From Caulobacter vibrioides OR37 (lineage in GTDB: Bacteria; Pseudomonadota; Alphaproteobacteria; Caulobacterales; Caulobacteraceae), in contig NZ_APMP01000001.1 of NCBI RefSeq assembly GCF_000372645.1, forward strand, positions 124,001 to 188,000: a stretch of 64,000 nucleotides of DNA, written 5' to 3'. The first letter of the stretch is position 1, and every line of letters starts with the position of its first letter. Of this stretch, positions 29,992-37,983 are shown in pieces. Below the pieces are notes generated by a model. The model was not told the origin of the DNA, did no database searches, and worked only from the letters and a program-made list of their open reading frames with translations. A program made the position numbers and the translations under genes.

Positions 29992-31323
29992 ATGCGCCTG
30001 TCGCGCTATTTCCTGCCGGTGCTGAAGGAAGCGCCGTCCGACGCCCAGATCGTTTCGCACCAGCTGATGCTCCGCGCCGGCATGATCCGCCAGGAGGCGG
30101 CGGGCATCTACGCCTGGCTGCCGTTGGGTCTGCGCGTGCTGAACAAGATCGAGCAGATCGTCCGTGAGGAAATGGATCGCGCCGGCGCCATCGAGCTCTT
30201 GATGCCGACCATCCAGCTGGCCGACCTGTGGCGCGAGAGCGGTCGCTACGACGACTACGGCGACGAGATGCTGCGCATCACCGACCGCCACAAGCGCGAG
30301 CTGCTGTTCGGTCCGACGGCCGAGGAAGTCGTCACCGACATCTTCCGCGCTTCGATCAAGAGCTACAAGGACCTGCCCAAGAACCTCTACAACATCCAGT
30401 GGAAGTTCCGGGACGAACGTCGCCCGCGCTTTGGCGTGATGCGCGGCCGTGAGTTCTTCATGAAGGACGCCTACAGCTTCGACCTCGACGCCGAAGGCGC
30501 GCGCAAGTCCTACAACCGCATGTTCGTGGCCTATCTGAACCTGTTCGCGCGGATGGGCCTGAAAGCCGTGCCGATGCGGGCCGACACCGGTCCGATCGGC
30601 GGCGACCTTTCTCACGAGTTCATCGTTCTGGCCGAGACCGGCGAAAGCGCCGTCTTCTGCCATAAGGACCTGGTCGAGATGCCGGCCCCCGGTCCGGACC
30701 TCGACTGGATCAACGGCGACCTGCAGCCGCTGGTGAACCAGCGCACGGCGCTCTACGCCGCGACCGAGGAGATGCACGACGAGGCCGCGTTCAACGCCCT
30801 GCCGGAGGACGATCGCCTGTCGGCGCGCGGCATCGAGGTCGGCCACATCTTCTCGTTCGGCACGAAGTACTCCGAGCCGATGAAGGCCACAGTCCAGGGC
30901 CCCGACGGCCAGCAGGTTCCGGTCCAGATGGGCAGCTATGGCGTCGGCGTCTCGCGTCTCTTGGGCGCGATCATCGAGGCCAGCCATGACGAGGGCGGCA
31001 TTATCTGGCCGGAAAGCGTCGCGCCGTTCGATGTCGGCATCGTCAACATGCGCCAGGGCGACGCCGCCTGCGACGAGGTCTGCGACAAGGCCTATGCCGC
31101 GCTGAAGGCCGCCGGCAAGGACGTCCTCTATGACGACACCGACGCCCGGGGCGGCGCCAAGTTCGCCACCATGGACCTGATCGGTCTGCCTTGGCAGCTG
31201 ATCGTCGGCCCGAAGGGCGTCGCCGAGGGCGTGGTCGAGCTGAAGAACCGCAAGACCGGCGAGCGGCAAAGCGCGTCGCTCGACGCCGTCCTCGAACAGC
31301 TCGTCAAGGGTAAGACCGCCTGA
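29992..31323 (+). CDS. proS: prolyl-tRNA synthetase (short, alphaproteobacterial type)
   Basis: Class II aminoacyl-tRNA synthetase charging tRNA-Pro. Visible: the N-terminal [34 protein letters not shown], motif 2 in [28 protein letters not shown], and motif 3 in [13 protein letters not shown]. At 443 residues it lacks the large editing insertion of the E. coli enzyme, as is normal in alphaproteobacteria. It is the first gene of the proS-lolC-lolD unit and overlaps lolC by one base. Confidence 0.96.
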
Positions 31324-32595
31324 TGCCAGACGTCCGCGCCGCCGGTCCCTTCAGTCGCTGGGAGCGCTCGGTCGCTCGGCGATACCTGTTCGCCAAGCGC
31401 AAGAACGGCGGCGTGGCGCTGATCTCGGTCATCTCGTTCTGCGCGGTGATGCTGGCGGTCTTCGCCTTGATCACCGTGATGAGCGTCATGAATGGCTTCC
31501 GAGCCGAGCTCCTGGGGCGCATTCTCGGCTTCAACGGGCATCTCTATGCTCAGTCGCCGCTGATCAACGGCCCCGACCGGGACACCATCATCCGGCGGAT
31601 CAAGGCCGCCCCAGGCGTGATCCAGGCCGCGCCGATGGTCGAGGCCCAGGCCATGGTCATCGGCCCGACCCAGGTGACCGGCGCGATCGTGCGCGGGGTG
31701 ACGACGTCGGACCTGCGGCACATGTCGCTGATCTCGGGCAACATCAAACAGGGCTCGATCAGCGGTTTTGGCCAGGGCGAGTACGGCGGCGAGATCGTCC
31801 TGATCGGCGACCGCATGGCCCAGAGCCTGGGCGTAAAGCCGGGCGACGCCATCACGCTGATCTCGCCGACGGGCCCCGCGACGGCCTTCGGCAGCTCGAC
31901 CCGGGAAAAGAATTACATCGTCGGCGGCATTTTCAGCGTTGGCATGAGCCAGTTCGACGAGGCCTTCGTCTACATGCCGCTGGAGCAGGCTCAGCTGTTC
32001 TTCGGCCGCGACACGTCGATCGACTATGTCGAGATCAAGGTCGACGACCCCGACAAGGCCAAGGATTACAAGCACGCGGTCGAGGTGGCGTCCGGTCCCG
32101 GCGCGCTTGTCACCGACTGGGTCGACAAGAACCACAGCTACTTCACCGCGCTTCAGGTGGAGCGGAAGGTGATGCGGCTGATCCTGTTCTGCATCGTGGC
32201 CATCGCCACGCTGAACATCATTTCCAGCCTGGTCATGCTGGTGAAGAACAAGGGCAAGGACATCGCCATCCTGCGCACCATGGGCGCCAGCCAGGGCGCG
32301 GTGCTGCGCATCTTCATCATGGCCGGGGCCTCGATCGGAGTAGCCGGCACCCTGTGCGGCCTGGCGCTGGGCGCGCTGTTCTGCACCTACATCACCCCGA
32401 TCCAGAACTTCGTGGAATGGGCGACGGGGACCTCGGTGTTCAACGCCGATGTCTATATGCTTTCGCACATTCCGGCGAAGATCGACTGGACAGAGGTCGG
32501 CGGCATCGTCGCGATCTCGGCCCTGATGAGCGTGCTGGCGACGCTGCCGCCGGCCATGCGCGCCGCGCGCCTCGATCCGGTGGAGGCGCTGCGTT

Positions 32596-32603
<8 letters not shown>
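31323..32603 (+). CDS. lolC: lipoprotein-releasing ABC transporter permease LolC/LolE
   Basis: Inner-membrane component of the Lol system, which extracts lipoproteins for the outer membrane. One N-terminal helix follows [23 protein letters not shown] large periplasmic domain comes next, then three C-terminal helices (FtsX/MacB type, [40 protein letters not shown]). 426 residues. Only one permease gene is present beside lolD, so the transporter may use a LolC/E homodimer. It overlaps lolD by eight bases. Confidence 0.93.
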
Positions 32604-33282
<679 letters not shown>

Positions 33283-33310: not shown

Positions 33311-34270
33311 TCAGAGCAGCGCGCGTTTCATCGCGGCGAAAAAGCCGGCCTGGTCGATCTTCTTGATCACGCGGGCGTTGGGCTCGCGCCGCTTCAGGGC
33401 TGGGTCGGCCACCTCGATATCCGGCAGGATCGCGTGGGAGACCGACAGATAGCCCCGCGTCAGCTCGCCCATGGTCTCGACATCGACGACGCAGGTCTCG
33501 GCGTCGAGGATCAGGCGCTCGTCTAAAGCCAAGGCGCAGGTCAGGGCGTCGGGGTGCAGACTGCCGTCGAGGCCCTCGGTTTCGCGGGCGAAGGCGAGGG
33601 AGGCGCGGTTCACATCGGTGAAAAAGCGGGCCTTGTCGGTCCCCAGCGCTTCGAGCTCCGCCAGTTGGGCGGTGCTCCAGAGGCCGTCCCGCAGCGTCAG
33701 GGTCCAAGTCGAGATCGTCAGGTTGAAGCCGGCGTTGACCACGATTTTGGCGGCTTCGGGATCGACGTAGAAATTATATTCCGCCGCCGGCGTGACGTTG
33801 CCGACGCCGTTGTCCGTGCCGCCCATGATCCAGAGATGCTTTAGCGCCTTGGCGATCCGGGGCTCGCGCAGATAGGCGAGGGCGATGTTGGTCAGCGGGG
33901 CCTGGGCGATGAGGGTGATCTCGCCGGGCGCGGCCATGATCCGACGCACCAGCTCATCGACCGCGTGACCGTCGGCGGGCCGCTGGGCGGTCCTGGCGAA
34001 GCCGCTGTCGCTCATGCCGTCCTTGCCGAAGACGTAGGCGGCGTCTAGCGGCGCGCGGCTGAACGGCCCCTGCGCGCCCAGATAGACCGGGACCTCGCCG
34101 GCCCGGCCGCACATCTCCAGCGTAACCAGGGCGTTCTCGGCGTGCTGGTCGAAGCCGACATTGCCATGGGCGATCGTGATCGCCTCCACGGACACGCCAG
34201 GGCGGGTGAGGGCCAACATCAGCGAAAAGACGTCGTCGCCGGCGGTGTCGGTGTCGATGATCAAGCGCAT
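33311..34270 (-). CDS. nucleoside hydrolase (inosine-uridine preferring type)
   Basis: Hydrolyses the N-glycosidic bond of nucleosides for base salvage. The calcium-binding N-terminal motif appears as IDTDTAGDD (family DTDxGxDD), and ITLIAQAPLTNIALA and LWIMGG match later family blocks. 319 residues from ATG 34270. The frame continues to 34417 with another ATG at 34306, but neither start has a strong ribosome site. Its promoter region lies back to back with sidA-dnaE and is close to the LexA box at 34373-34387. Confidence 0.85.
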   Translation of the reverse strand: MRLIIDTDTAGDDVFSLMLALTRPGVSVEAITIAHGNVGFDQHAENALVTLEMCGRAGEVPVYLGAQGPFSRAPLDAAYVFGKDGMSDSGFARTAQRPADGHAVDELVRRIMAAPGEITLIAQAPLTNIALAYLREPRIAKALKHLWIMGGTDNGVGNVTPAAEYNFYVDPEAAKIVVNAGFNLTISTWTLTLRDGLWSTAQLAELEALGTDKARFFTDVNRASLAFARETEGLDGSLHPDALTCALALDERLILDAETCVVDVETMGELTRGYLSVSHAILPDIEVADPALKRREPNARVIKKIDQAGFFAAMKRALL

Positions 34271-34372
34271 GGCGTTGATCTGAACCGATCCGGCGCGCTT
34301 GGCCATAGGTCCGTGGCTTTGGACCGTGAACCGTTCACCGAACGCCCAAGGAAAATGCGGTGAAGATCGCTG

Positions 34373-34387
34373 GAACATCTTGTGAAC
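34373..34387 (+). promoter_or_regulatory. LexA box of sidA (and possibly dnaE)
   Basis: Exact alphaproteobacterial LexA operator GAAC-N7-GAAC: GAAC at 34373-34376, seven bases, GAAC at 34384-34387. It covers a plausible -35 (TTGTGA, 34380-34385) that pairs with TATGGA at 34403-34408 across 17 bases. LexA binding would therefore block sidA transcription. lexA itself lies at the right end of the window. Confidence 0.85.
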
Positions 34388-34436
34388 AGAACAAAAGCGG
34401 AATATGGAACGAAACAAGAAAGTTGTGGAGGTTCCG

Positions 34437-34526
34437 ATGATCCGTATCGCCCGTGAGTCTTTGGCCCTTGTGTCGGTCGTCGGCTTCGTCTGGATGATGT
34501 GTTCGGTGGCTCAGCTGGTGGCCTGA
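34437..34526 (+). CDS. sidA: SidA, SOS-induced cell-division inhibitor peptide
   Basis: 29-codon gene just upstream of dnaE. Start ATG has GGAG eight to nine bases before it. The product is one membrane-spanning peptide: short basic N-terminus (MIRIARE), then a hydrophobic helix through about residue 28. In C. crescentus SidA is a 29-residue inner-membrane protein, induced through LexA after DNA damage, that stops constriction by acting on the late division proteins FtsW/FtsN. Length, membrane topology, the exact LexA box 50 bases upstream and the position next to dnaE all agree. The dnaE start is 25 bases further, so the two may share a transcript. Confidence 0.85.
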
Positions 34527-34551
34527 GTCGTGTAGGCGCGGAGAAACGGTG

Positions 34552-37500
34552 ATGGCGGACGCGGAAGGGCAGAATTTCGTCCACCTGCGCGTTCGCTCGG
34601 CCTATTCGCTGCTCGAAGGTGCCATCAAGGCGGACCAGATCGGCAAGCTGGCCGCCGCGGCCGGTATGCCGGCCGCCGGGATCGCCGACCGCGCTAATCT
34701 CTTCGGGGCGCTTGAATATTCGTCCTATGCCAAGGACGCCGGGGTCCAGCCGATCATCGGCTGCGCCATTCCCGTCACCGGCATCGGCGGCGGTCCGACC
34801 GAACGCTGGGCGCGCGCCCCGACGGTCGTGTTGCTGGCCCAGAACGAGCAGGGCTACCTGAACCTCTCGGAACTGTCGTCGATCGCCTATCTCGATAGCG
34901 CCGAGCTACCCGAACCTGTCGTTCCGTGGGACAAGGTCGCCGCCTATAGCGAGGGGCTGATCCTGCTATCGGGGGGTACGGACGGGCCGGTCGACGCCCT
35001 GTTCGCCGCCGGCAAGACCGCGGAGGCCTCGGCCGCCCTGGCGGAGATGCACAGGGCATTCGGCGACCGCTTCTATGTCGAGCTGCAGCGGCACGGTTTG
35101 CCCAAGCAGGCGGCCGCCGAACCGGGCCTGGTGAACTGGGCCTACGACAATGACGTGCCGCTGGTCGCCACCAACGACGTCTATTTCGCCAAGGAAGGCT
35201 TCTACGACGCGCACGACGCGCTGCTTTGCATCGCCGACGGGGCGTTTGTCGGCCAGGACGAACGCCGTCGCGTCACGCCGGAGCACTGGTTCAAGCCCTC
35301 GGCGGACATGCGCAAGTTGTTTTCCGACCTGCCGGAAGCCTGCGACAACACCCTCGATATCGCCCGGCGTTGCGCCTTCATGGTGCACAAGCGCGCGCCT
35401 ATTCTGCCCAGCTTCCCGACGGGCGACGGCCGCAACGAGGCCGAGGAACTGCGTCACCAGGCCAAGGAGGGTCTGAAGATGCGACTCGACGGCCTGACCC
35501 TGTCGGCGCCCGAGGAGGAGTATTGGAAGCGGCTCGAGTTCGAACTCGGCATCATCGAAAAGATGGGGTTCCCGGGCTACTTCCTGATCGTTTCGGACTT
35601 CATCAAATGGGGCAAGGCTCATGGTATCCCCGTCGGCCCTGGACGGGGGTCCGGCGCGGGGTCCCTGGTCGCCTGGGTCCTGACCATCACCGATCTGGAC
35701 CCGCTGCGCTTTGGTCTGCTGTTCGAGCGCTTCCTCAATCCCGAGCGGGTTTCGATGCCCGACTTCGACGTCGACTTCTGCCAGGAGCGGCGCGAAGAGG
35801 TGATTTCCTACGTGCAGGAGAAGTACGGCCGCGACCGCGTGGCCCAGATCATTACCTTCGGCTCGCTGCAGGCCCGCGCCGTGCTGCGCGACGTGGGCCG
35901 GGTGATGCAGCTGCCGCTGGGCCTGGTGGATCGTCTTTGCAAGATGGTGCCCAACAATCCGGCCGCGCCCGTGACTCTGGCCCAGGCCATCGATATCGAG
36001 CCGCGTCTGAAGCAGGCTAAGAAGGAAGACGCCAACGTCTCTGCCTGCCTGGACGTGGCGCTGCAGCTGGAGGGCCTGTTCCGCAACGCCTCGACCCACG
36101 CCGCCGGCGTGGTGATCGGCGACCGGCCGCTGACCCAACTGACGCCGCTCTATAAGGATCCGCGCTCGGATCTGCCCGCCACCCAGTTCAACATGAAGTG
36201 GGTCGAGAGCGCGGGGTTGGTGAAGTTCGACTTCCTGGGCCTGAAGACCCTGACCGTGCTGGACCGGGCGGTGAAGCACCTGAAGAAGCGCGGCTTCGAG
36301 ATCGATCTGGGCAAGCTGCCGTTCGACGACACCAAGACCTACGAACTGCTGGCCTCAGGCCAGACGGTCGGCGTGTTCCAGCTTGAAAGCCAGGGGATGC
36401 GCGACACCCTGCGTAAGATGCGCTGCGGCTCGATCGAGGAGATCACCGCGCTGATCTCGCTGTATCGCCCCGGCCCGATGGACAACATCGACACCTTCGT
36501 CGACTGCAAGTTCGGTCGCAAGCCGGTCGACACGCTCCACCCCTCGCTGGAGACGGTGCTGAAGGAGACCTACGGCGTCATCGTCTACCAGGAACAGGTG
36601 ATGCAGATCGCCCAGATCCTGGCGGGCTATAGTCTGGGCGAAGCCGACCTGCTGCGGCGCGCCATGGGCAAGAAGAAAAAGGAGGAGATGGATCTTCAGA
36701 AGATCCGTTTCGTCTCCGGCGCCAAGGAAAAGGGTGTTCCCGAGGAGCAGTCGGGATCGATCTTCGAACTGGTGGCCAAGTTCGCCGGCTACGGCTTCAA
36801 CAAGTCGCACGCCGCCGCCTATGCGTTCATCTCGTACCAGACGGGCTGGCTGAAGGCGAACACCCCGGTCGAGTTCTTCGCGGCCTCGATGAGCCTCGAT
36901 TTGTCGAACACCGACAAGCTGGCGGTCTTCCATCAGGACGCGCGCAAATTCGACGTCACCGTGCGCGCGCCCGACATCAATCTTTCCGGCGCCGACTTCG
37001 AAGTCGAGAACGGCGAGGTGCTCTACGCTCTGGGCGCGATCCGCAATGTGGGTCTCGAGGCGATGAAGCATCTGGTCGCGGTGCGCGAGGAGGGTGGGCC
37101 ATTCCGCGATATCTTCGACTTCGTCGAGCGGATCGATCCGCGCCAGGTCAACAAGCGCGCGATCGAAAACCTGGCCCGGGCCGGCGCCTTCGATTCGATC
37201 CACAAGAACCGCGCCCAGATCGTGGCCTCGGCCGACGTCCTGATCGCTCATGCTCAGAGCTGTCACGCCGATCGCCAGGGCGGGCAGGGGGGATTGTTCG
37301 GTTCCGACCCGAGCGCCGGGCGTCCGCGTCTCGCCAAGACTGAGAACTGGAACCAGGTCGACCTGCTGGACGAGGAGTTGTCGGCGGTCGGTTTCTACCT
37401 GACGGGTCACCCTCTGGAGGACATGGTCGGGCCGCTGCGTCGCAAGCGCACGGTGATGTTCGCCGAGGCCGTGGCCCAGGCCGAGGCCGGCATGGAGGCC

Positions 37501-37983
37501 TTCCGCATGTGCGGCGTGGTGCGTCGCCGTCAGGAGCGCGCATCGCAGAGCGGCGAGAAGTTCGCCTTCGTCTCGCTGTCGGATCCCACCGGCGAATATG
37601 AGGTGTTGTTCCCGCCGGAGTCCCTGCGCAAATGCCGCGACACGCTGGAGCCGGGCAAGGCCGTGGCCATCAAGGTCCGCGCCAAGGCTCGCGACGGCGA
37701 GGTCCGCTTCTTTGGTGACGACGCCGAGCCGATCGAAAAAGCCATCGAGAACGTCGTGGCGGGCCTGCGGGTGCACCTGTCGCCCAGCGCCGCTGAGATC
37801 GAGGCCCTCAAGCGGCGGCTCGAACCGGCTCAATCCCAGAAGGGCGGCGAGGTGACCTTCGTCGCCGCGATTGGCGGCGGTCGAGAGATCGAACTGCGCC
37901 TTCCAGGCCGCTACGCGCTCGACGCCTCGCTGCGCGGCGCGCTGAAGACCGCGCCGGGCGTCGCCTTACTGGAGGATGTCTAG
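34552..37983 (+). CDS. dnaE: DNA polymerase III subunit alpha
   Basis: Replicative polymerase catalytic subunit, 1143 residues. The N-terminal PHP domain is degenerate: [13 protein letters not shown] has Arg and Ala where active PHP domains keep His and Asp, so no metal-dependent exonuclease is expected. The catalytic aspartates lie in [10 protein letters not shown] (Asp404, Asp406, Asp408). The C-terminal part has the helix-hairpin-helix and OB ([17 protein letters not shown]) domains. Start ATG 34552, with GGAG eight bases upstream. Full-length and distinct from the error-prone ImuC/DnaE2. Confidence 0.96.

Follow-up and report, generated by a model that had tools for sequence, protein, structure and literature searches.

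Introduction

In Caulobacter vibrioides OR37 an open reading frame of 29 codons lies between a LexA-type box and dnaE, which raises the questions of what this frame encodes, whether the box is its operator, and how far the same arrangement extends beyond the genus. The locus was analyzed within a stretch of 64,000 nucleotides (contig NZ_APMP01000001.1, positions 124,001 to 188,000), referred to here as the window, to which all coordinates without a prefix belong.

An obvious candidate is SidA, which in C. crescentus is described as a 29-residue, SOS-induced inhibitor of the inner membrane that interacts with FtsW, and whose promoter, PsidA, is described as induced by mitomycin C (PMC4211646). 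A lexA mutant is described as filamenting, with relief upon deletion of sidA. DidA, also from C. crescentus, is a second small membrane protein that inhibits division through action on FtsW/I/N but, as presented in the same source, is SOS-independent, DriD-induced and FtsN-interacting (PMC4211646). Escherichia coli SulA likewise imposes an SOS-induced division stop but is described as disrupting FtsZ polymerisation (PMC4211646). Bacillus subtilis YneA is an SOS-induced division inhibitor with a reported FtsW interaction (PMC13396833), although it comes from a separate phylum and is likened here by description, not sequence.

Results

The sidA gene and its product

The reading frame (34437-34526, plus strand) runs from an ATG at 34437 to a TGA at 34524-34526 and follows a ribosome-binding site, GGAGG (34427-34431, plus strand), similar sites being present ahead of the genes of relatives. 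Its 29 codons specify charged residues at the N-terminus (R3, R6 and E7) and a single hydrophobic helix, called from hydropathy (Kyte-Doolittle mean of 2.26 in the best 17-residue stretch). A 29-residue, one-helix peptide gene with a ribosome site between an operator and dnaE, as proposed in the initial annotation, is thus found. Its identification as SidA also holds: the peptide matches the NCBIfam model NF033228.1 (div_inhib_SidA) with 72.7 bits against an equivalog cut-off of 35, over 29/29 model positions, and the existence of this curated model softens the accompanying remark that such a gene is too short for most gene finders. Pfam gives no match for the 29-residue peptide. Among 14 control genomes NF033228.1 finds a match in Caulobacter vibrioides only. 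The window SidA was compared by means of the NCBI model and with relatives of known name, among them C. vibrioides DSM 9893 (locus L067), which shares 93.9% identity with the host over the start region of dnaE. Judged by this match, the window gene is the sidA orthologue that would be expected in a Caulobacter, and represents known biology.

Linkage to dnaE and conservation in Caulobacteraceae

The gene for the replicative DNA polymerase III alpha subunit, dnaE (34549-37983, plus strand; Pfam DNA_pol3_alpha, E 8.4e-102), begins at GTG 34549 or ATG 34552, 22 nt after the end of sidA. When loci with an identical 100 nt upstream and an identical peptide are counted once, 140 loci of the family reduce to 103 distinct ones; among the loci with a species name are Caulobacter, Phenylobacterium and a single record under the label Brevundimonas vancanneytii. 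In 102 of the 103 distinct loci dnaE lies downstream of sidA, the exception (L097) being cut by a contig end. Across 89 distinct family genes pS is 0.555 and pN 0.162, showing purifying selection on sidA.

A protein search with the window peptide gave a match in 266 of 299 same-family genomes and 20 of 22 genera at E <= 1, a loose threshold at which many matches in genus g9 lie at E 0.01-0.9; for the weakly matching g9 loci L152 and L154-L157 the ORF and box settings gave no call. In eight family genomes that lacked a match, the region upstream of dnaE contains the peptide in four (G049, G062, G104 and G057) and none in two (G036 and G051), with G037 and G021 left out of the call. NF033228.1, searched across 299 genomes of the order, gave 54 matches at E <= 0.01 and 33 above its cut-off, all 33 listed places being in the window's own family. 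One genome carries a second SidA-like peptide (L164, G042:C3:315102-315185) at a locus with no dnaE, and the 120 nt ahead of this peptide contain no exact box. Upstream of sidA the window encodes a permease of the MacB/FtsX type together with an ABC ATPase (31323-33282), which we take to be LolC/LolD-like, and the minus strand carries a nucleoside hydrolase gene between this pair and sidA.

The frame is also open from an in-frame ATG at 34404, which would yield a product of 40 residues. This longer form was rejected, and is considered extremely improbable, because a start at codon -11 is present in just 15/103 family loci, against a start at codon 0 or -1 in 103/103; moreover, its extra codons would overlap one of the boxes described below (box C), and the spacing of GGAGG suits ATG 34437. 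The gene sidA is named among those with a corrected start in PMC4117421, where the position is not stated.

A cluster of LexA boxes upstream of sidA

Three boxes on the plus strand precede the 29-codon gene. Box A (GAACATCTTGTGAAC, 34373-34387) is an exact GAAC-N7-GAAC and spans a -35-like TTG (34380-34382); box B (GAACAAAAGCGGAAT, 34389-34403) has one mismatch, in its second half-site; and box C (GAACGAAACAAGAAA, 34407-34421) has one mismatch in the window, its position being exact in many Phenylobacterium and related loci. A match to the pattern was rejected as evidence in itself, since there is no enrichment: the window contains 1 match compared with 1.71 expected in the shuffled window, and the host genome 114 compared with 84 for the reversed pattern. 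The window box stands above chance instead through its position and conservation. All 15 bases of box A are kept in 14/14 other distinct loci whose dnaE is >=92% identical, whereas the 30 nt before it have a mean identity to the window of only 51% in those same loci; among the remaining family loci (dnaE <92% identical) box A is present in 4/88.

Over the 102 family loci with full-length upstream sequence, GAAC-N7-GAA[CTA] occurs at the position of box B in 99, a further GAAC follows 16-18 nt on from it in 93, and in all 93 of these a TTG lies within 16 nt 5' of box B (at 9-11 nt in 87). An exact GAAC-N7-GAAC is present in 69/102, leaving 33 without an exact copy. Because the exact copy falls at A, B or C depending on the locus, the predicted sidA operator is a cluster of boxes whose best copy shifts. 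The exact box that the initial annotation had taken as the operator is therefore present just where it was placed (34373-34387), but it belongs to a tandem set of three, and the family-wide operator position is that of box B, at 34389-34403. According to PMC12700426, a single box is present at about 97% of the SOS promoters in C. crescentus. A simple sigma-70 promoter scan and a scan for terminator-like sites found none in 34300-34620, and an RNA family search found none in 33900-35000.

Alternatively, box A could be a chance match and box B the sole operator, a reading consistent with the 1.71 matches expected per window and with box A being present in 19 family loci but missing from 83 of 102. 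It is nevertheless unlikely, given that 14/14 close relatives keep the 15 bases amid flanks of 51% identity and that the box of host recA (GAACATCTTGCGAAC, 107 nt upstream of the gene) differs from box A by a single spacer base.

SOS genes and FtsW of the host

The host lexA gene lies just beyond the end of the window, and two exact GAAC-N7-GAAC boxes (G000:C1:188639 and 188677) precede its matched domain, which makes autoregulation likely. From the genome matches listed (114 in the genome), 20 box places with A/T-rich spacers were taken, and for five of the proteins encoded behind them the first 70 residues were scanned. Four were recognised as recA, ssb, dnaB and mraZ products, of which the ssb piece scored above the whole-protein cut-off and the recA, dnaB and mraZ pieces below theirs, as expected for pieces; the N-terminal 70 residues of the fifth, which is presumably ImuA-like, gave no profile match. 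The box ahead of mraZ, the division-cluster regulator gene, is an exact GTTC-N7-GTTC towards the gene (G000:C6:189589-189603, L175), 95 nt before the longest mraZ frame, and that ahead of the DnaB-like helicase gene is an exact LexA-type box (G000:C1:58270-58284, L165), 72 nt before it.

The host FtsW was identified at L143 (TIGR02614, 352.3 bits, cut-off 337.5). A second candidate, L142, was rejected as RodA-like by its neighbour gene, an ORF that we take to be PBP2-like. Host FtsW carries A31, F145 and A246, the positions at which SidA suppressors in C. crescentus FtsW are described (PMC4211646).

Box and peptide ahead of dnaE in other families of the order

Within the order, 81 dnaE upstream regions from four families besides Caulobacteraceae, chosen without a SidA search, were surveyed (11 genomes and 70 of the 71 in a second set, G379 being left out). 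The arrangement sought was an exact GAAC-N7-GAAC, then an ORF of 20-45 residues with one helix, then dnaE, within 400 nt. An exact box is present in 46/81, the ORF in 49/81, and box followed by ORF in 41/81, counts that are not independent events since the loci are interrelated. In a control window 414-820 nt upstream the corresponding figures are 0/79, 11/79 and 0/79, and on the reverse strand 5/81, 19/81 and 0/81; the reversed pattern CAAG-N7-CAAG occurs in 0/81. Under slightly stricter settings box and ORF occur together in 10/20 loci of family f3, 11/20 of f4 and 19/20 of f5, and shuffling (30 per locus) gave 0.000 in each family. A relaxed re-reading of five loci recovered the ORF in four, and none in L219. 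In the remaining family, f2 (for example L205 and L206), the arrangement is found in 0/21; a box is present in two of its loci, both of which the relaxed re-reading left out, and the pattern suggests loss.

A patchy distribution in the class

Outside the order 40 families of the class, picked mostly by top dnaE similarity, were surveyed, followed by 20 more. Within 400 nt of dnaE the first 40 gave an exact box in 9, the ORF in 13 and both in 8; further upstream the counts were 0, 6 and 0 (of 40), and on the reverse strand 2, 4 and 0, with the reversed pattern in 1. Extending the limit to 800 nt gave 10 with a box and 9 with box and ORF, the tenth locus with a box (L280) having an ORF only at relaxed length. 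In the next 20 families a box was found in 0/20 dnaE upstream regions. Box and ORF thus occur in 10/60 further families, one of them by relaxed settings, and an unlimited class-wide claim was rejected because of the 0/20 in the later families and because the first 40 had been ranked mostly by dnaE similarity.

When 192 class genomes were searched with a profile of these peptides (A6), 17 of them gave a hit at E <= 0.01, and 14 of these hits precede dnaE by no more than about 400 nt. Eight hits are members of A6 themselves. The remaining nine include six ahead of dnaE, all with an exact box, among them G022 and G638, the latter with a peptide identical to that of an A6 member. Two more, in G662 and G718, fall inside long open frames (413 and 238 residues) and were dismissed as chance matches. 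The profile missed G569 and G634, both of which have box and ORF. At the locus of the ninth hit (L350, G551) a SidA-like peptide (MKNMIEDVMALGTLLGLSYVILVWGSIGEA...) follows TTGACA and an exact LexA box that starts 46 nt before the peptide, and the contig ends ahead of the next gene.

These surveys also bear on whether the short ORF might instead be a dnaE leader (an attenuator or translational coupler), with the LexA boxes serving dnaE. Such a role would fit the position of the ORF ahead of dnaE in 102/103 family loci, mostly by 12-60 nt, and the failure of the scan to find a terminator-like site in 34300-34620. It is very unlikely, however: residues are conserved beyond a mere open frame; at one locus of another family (L197) dnaE lies as far as about 290 nt away; boxes and peptide co-occur with Fisher p values, calculated with kinship ignored, of 1.4e-9 (81 order loci) and 1.3e-4 (40 class loci); and SidA is described as active when overproduced from a plasmid (PMC4211646).

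Proposed relatedness of the outgroup peptides to SidA

The peptides of families outside Caulobacteraceae do not reach the NF033228.1 cut-off, and hence are not filed as SidA; of the 24 A6 members 5 match this model at E 0.01 or better, and 0/24 match Pfam. Profiles were therefore compared with each other, using rows picked by the authors, nearly all from box-and-ORF loci: A2 comprises SidA and its family relatives, A3 12 f4 and 2 f3 rows, and A4 12 f5 and 2 f3 rows. That these are unrelated one-helix peptides of independent origin, for example SOS membrane toxins, is suggested by the compositional likeness to be expected among one-helix peptides and by the weak alignment of SidA with A4 (hhalign probability of 8%, with 2/100 column permutations as good). 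We consider independent origin rather doubtful, since A2 aligns with A3 at a probability of 96% with 0/100 permutations as good, and the pairs A3-A4, A3-A5, A4-A5 and A2-A5 each give 0/100 as well. Register agrees in most of the comparisons, D or E occupies one aligned column in 23/24 A6 rows, and the gene neighbour and operator type are held in common. Within single-genus groups of the peptides amino-acid-changing changes are fewer than silent ones, with pN/pS of 0.275 (7 genes), 0.031 (8), 0.304 (4) and 0.090 (3).

Discussion

With very high confidence the window gene is read as sidA, encoding a LexA-repressed, damage-induced division inhibitor that would hold FtsW/FtsI/FtsN inactive. The gene, the boxes, their conservation, the FtsW suppressor positions, and the host LexA and RecA are observed in the window strain; induction of sidA and action of its product on FtsW are expected there by analogy with the work on C. 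crescentus. Like C. crescentus SidA (NF033228.1), the product has 29 residues and one helix, an upstream LexA-type box, and a host FtsW with the published suppressor positions; it differs in belonging to another strain, characterized here by sequence. LexA bound to the tandem boxes, at and just past the -35-like element, would keep sidA off. Upon DNA damage, activation of RecA would lead to cleavage of LexA and production of the 29-residue peptide, which, with its charged N-terminus beside one helix, would enter the inner membrane and keep the FtsW/FtsI/FtsN complex inactive, halting constriction until the damage is repaired.

What is new here is that the arrangement of box, peptide and dnaE reaches past the curated SidA model. 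Our proposal is that there is a family of micropeptides under LexA control and linked to dnaE, of which SidA is the branch described so far; the family would be older than that branch and have been kept beside dnaE. In the fuller reading, held with moderate confidence, no branch other than SidA has been described from this family of LexA-controlled single-helix peptides upstream of dnaE; the peptides may act as a general SOS division brake, occurring across a large part of the order and in scattered further families of the class (10/60), and one derepressed promoter would both stop division and be able to read into dnaE. The link to dnaE may be plain co-transcription, or may reflect selection for a single promoter that halts division and supplies polymerase; the variable gap between peptide and dnaE argues for a looser link. 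Outside Caulobacter function is something we infer: both SOS control and insertion into the membrane are strongly indicated for the outgroup peptides, and division arrest is suggested less firmly, by similarity and position. Among the publications searched, no title or opening of an abstract announces a SidA-like family outside Caulobacter, and an earlier description is possible in the subscription literature, which was mostly outside the scope of the search.

To our knowledge no inhibitor of division under SOS control is known in many Alphaproteobacteria, and for such organisms the survey supplies candidate genes together with predicted operators. The wider dnaE-linked pattern therefore matters more than the window gene, which is an expected orthologue.
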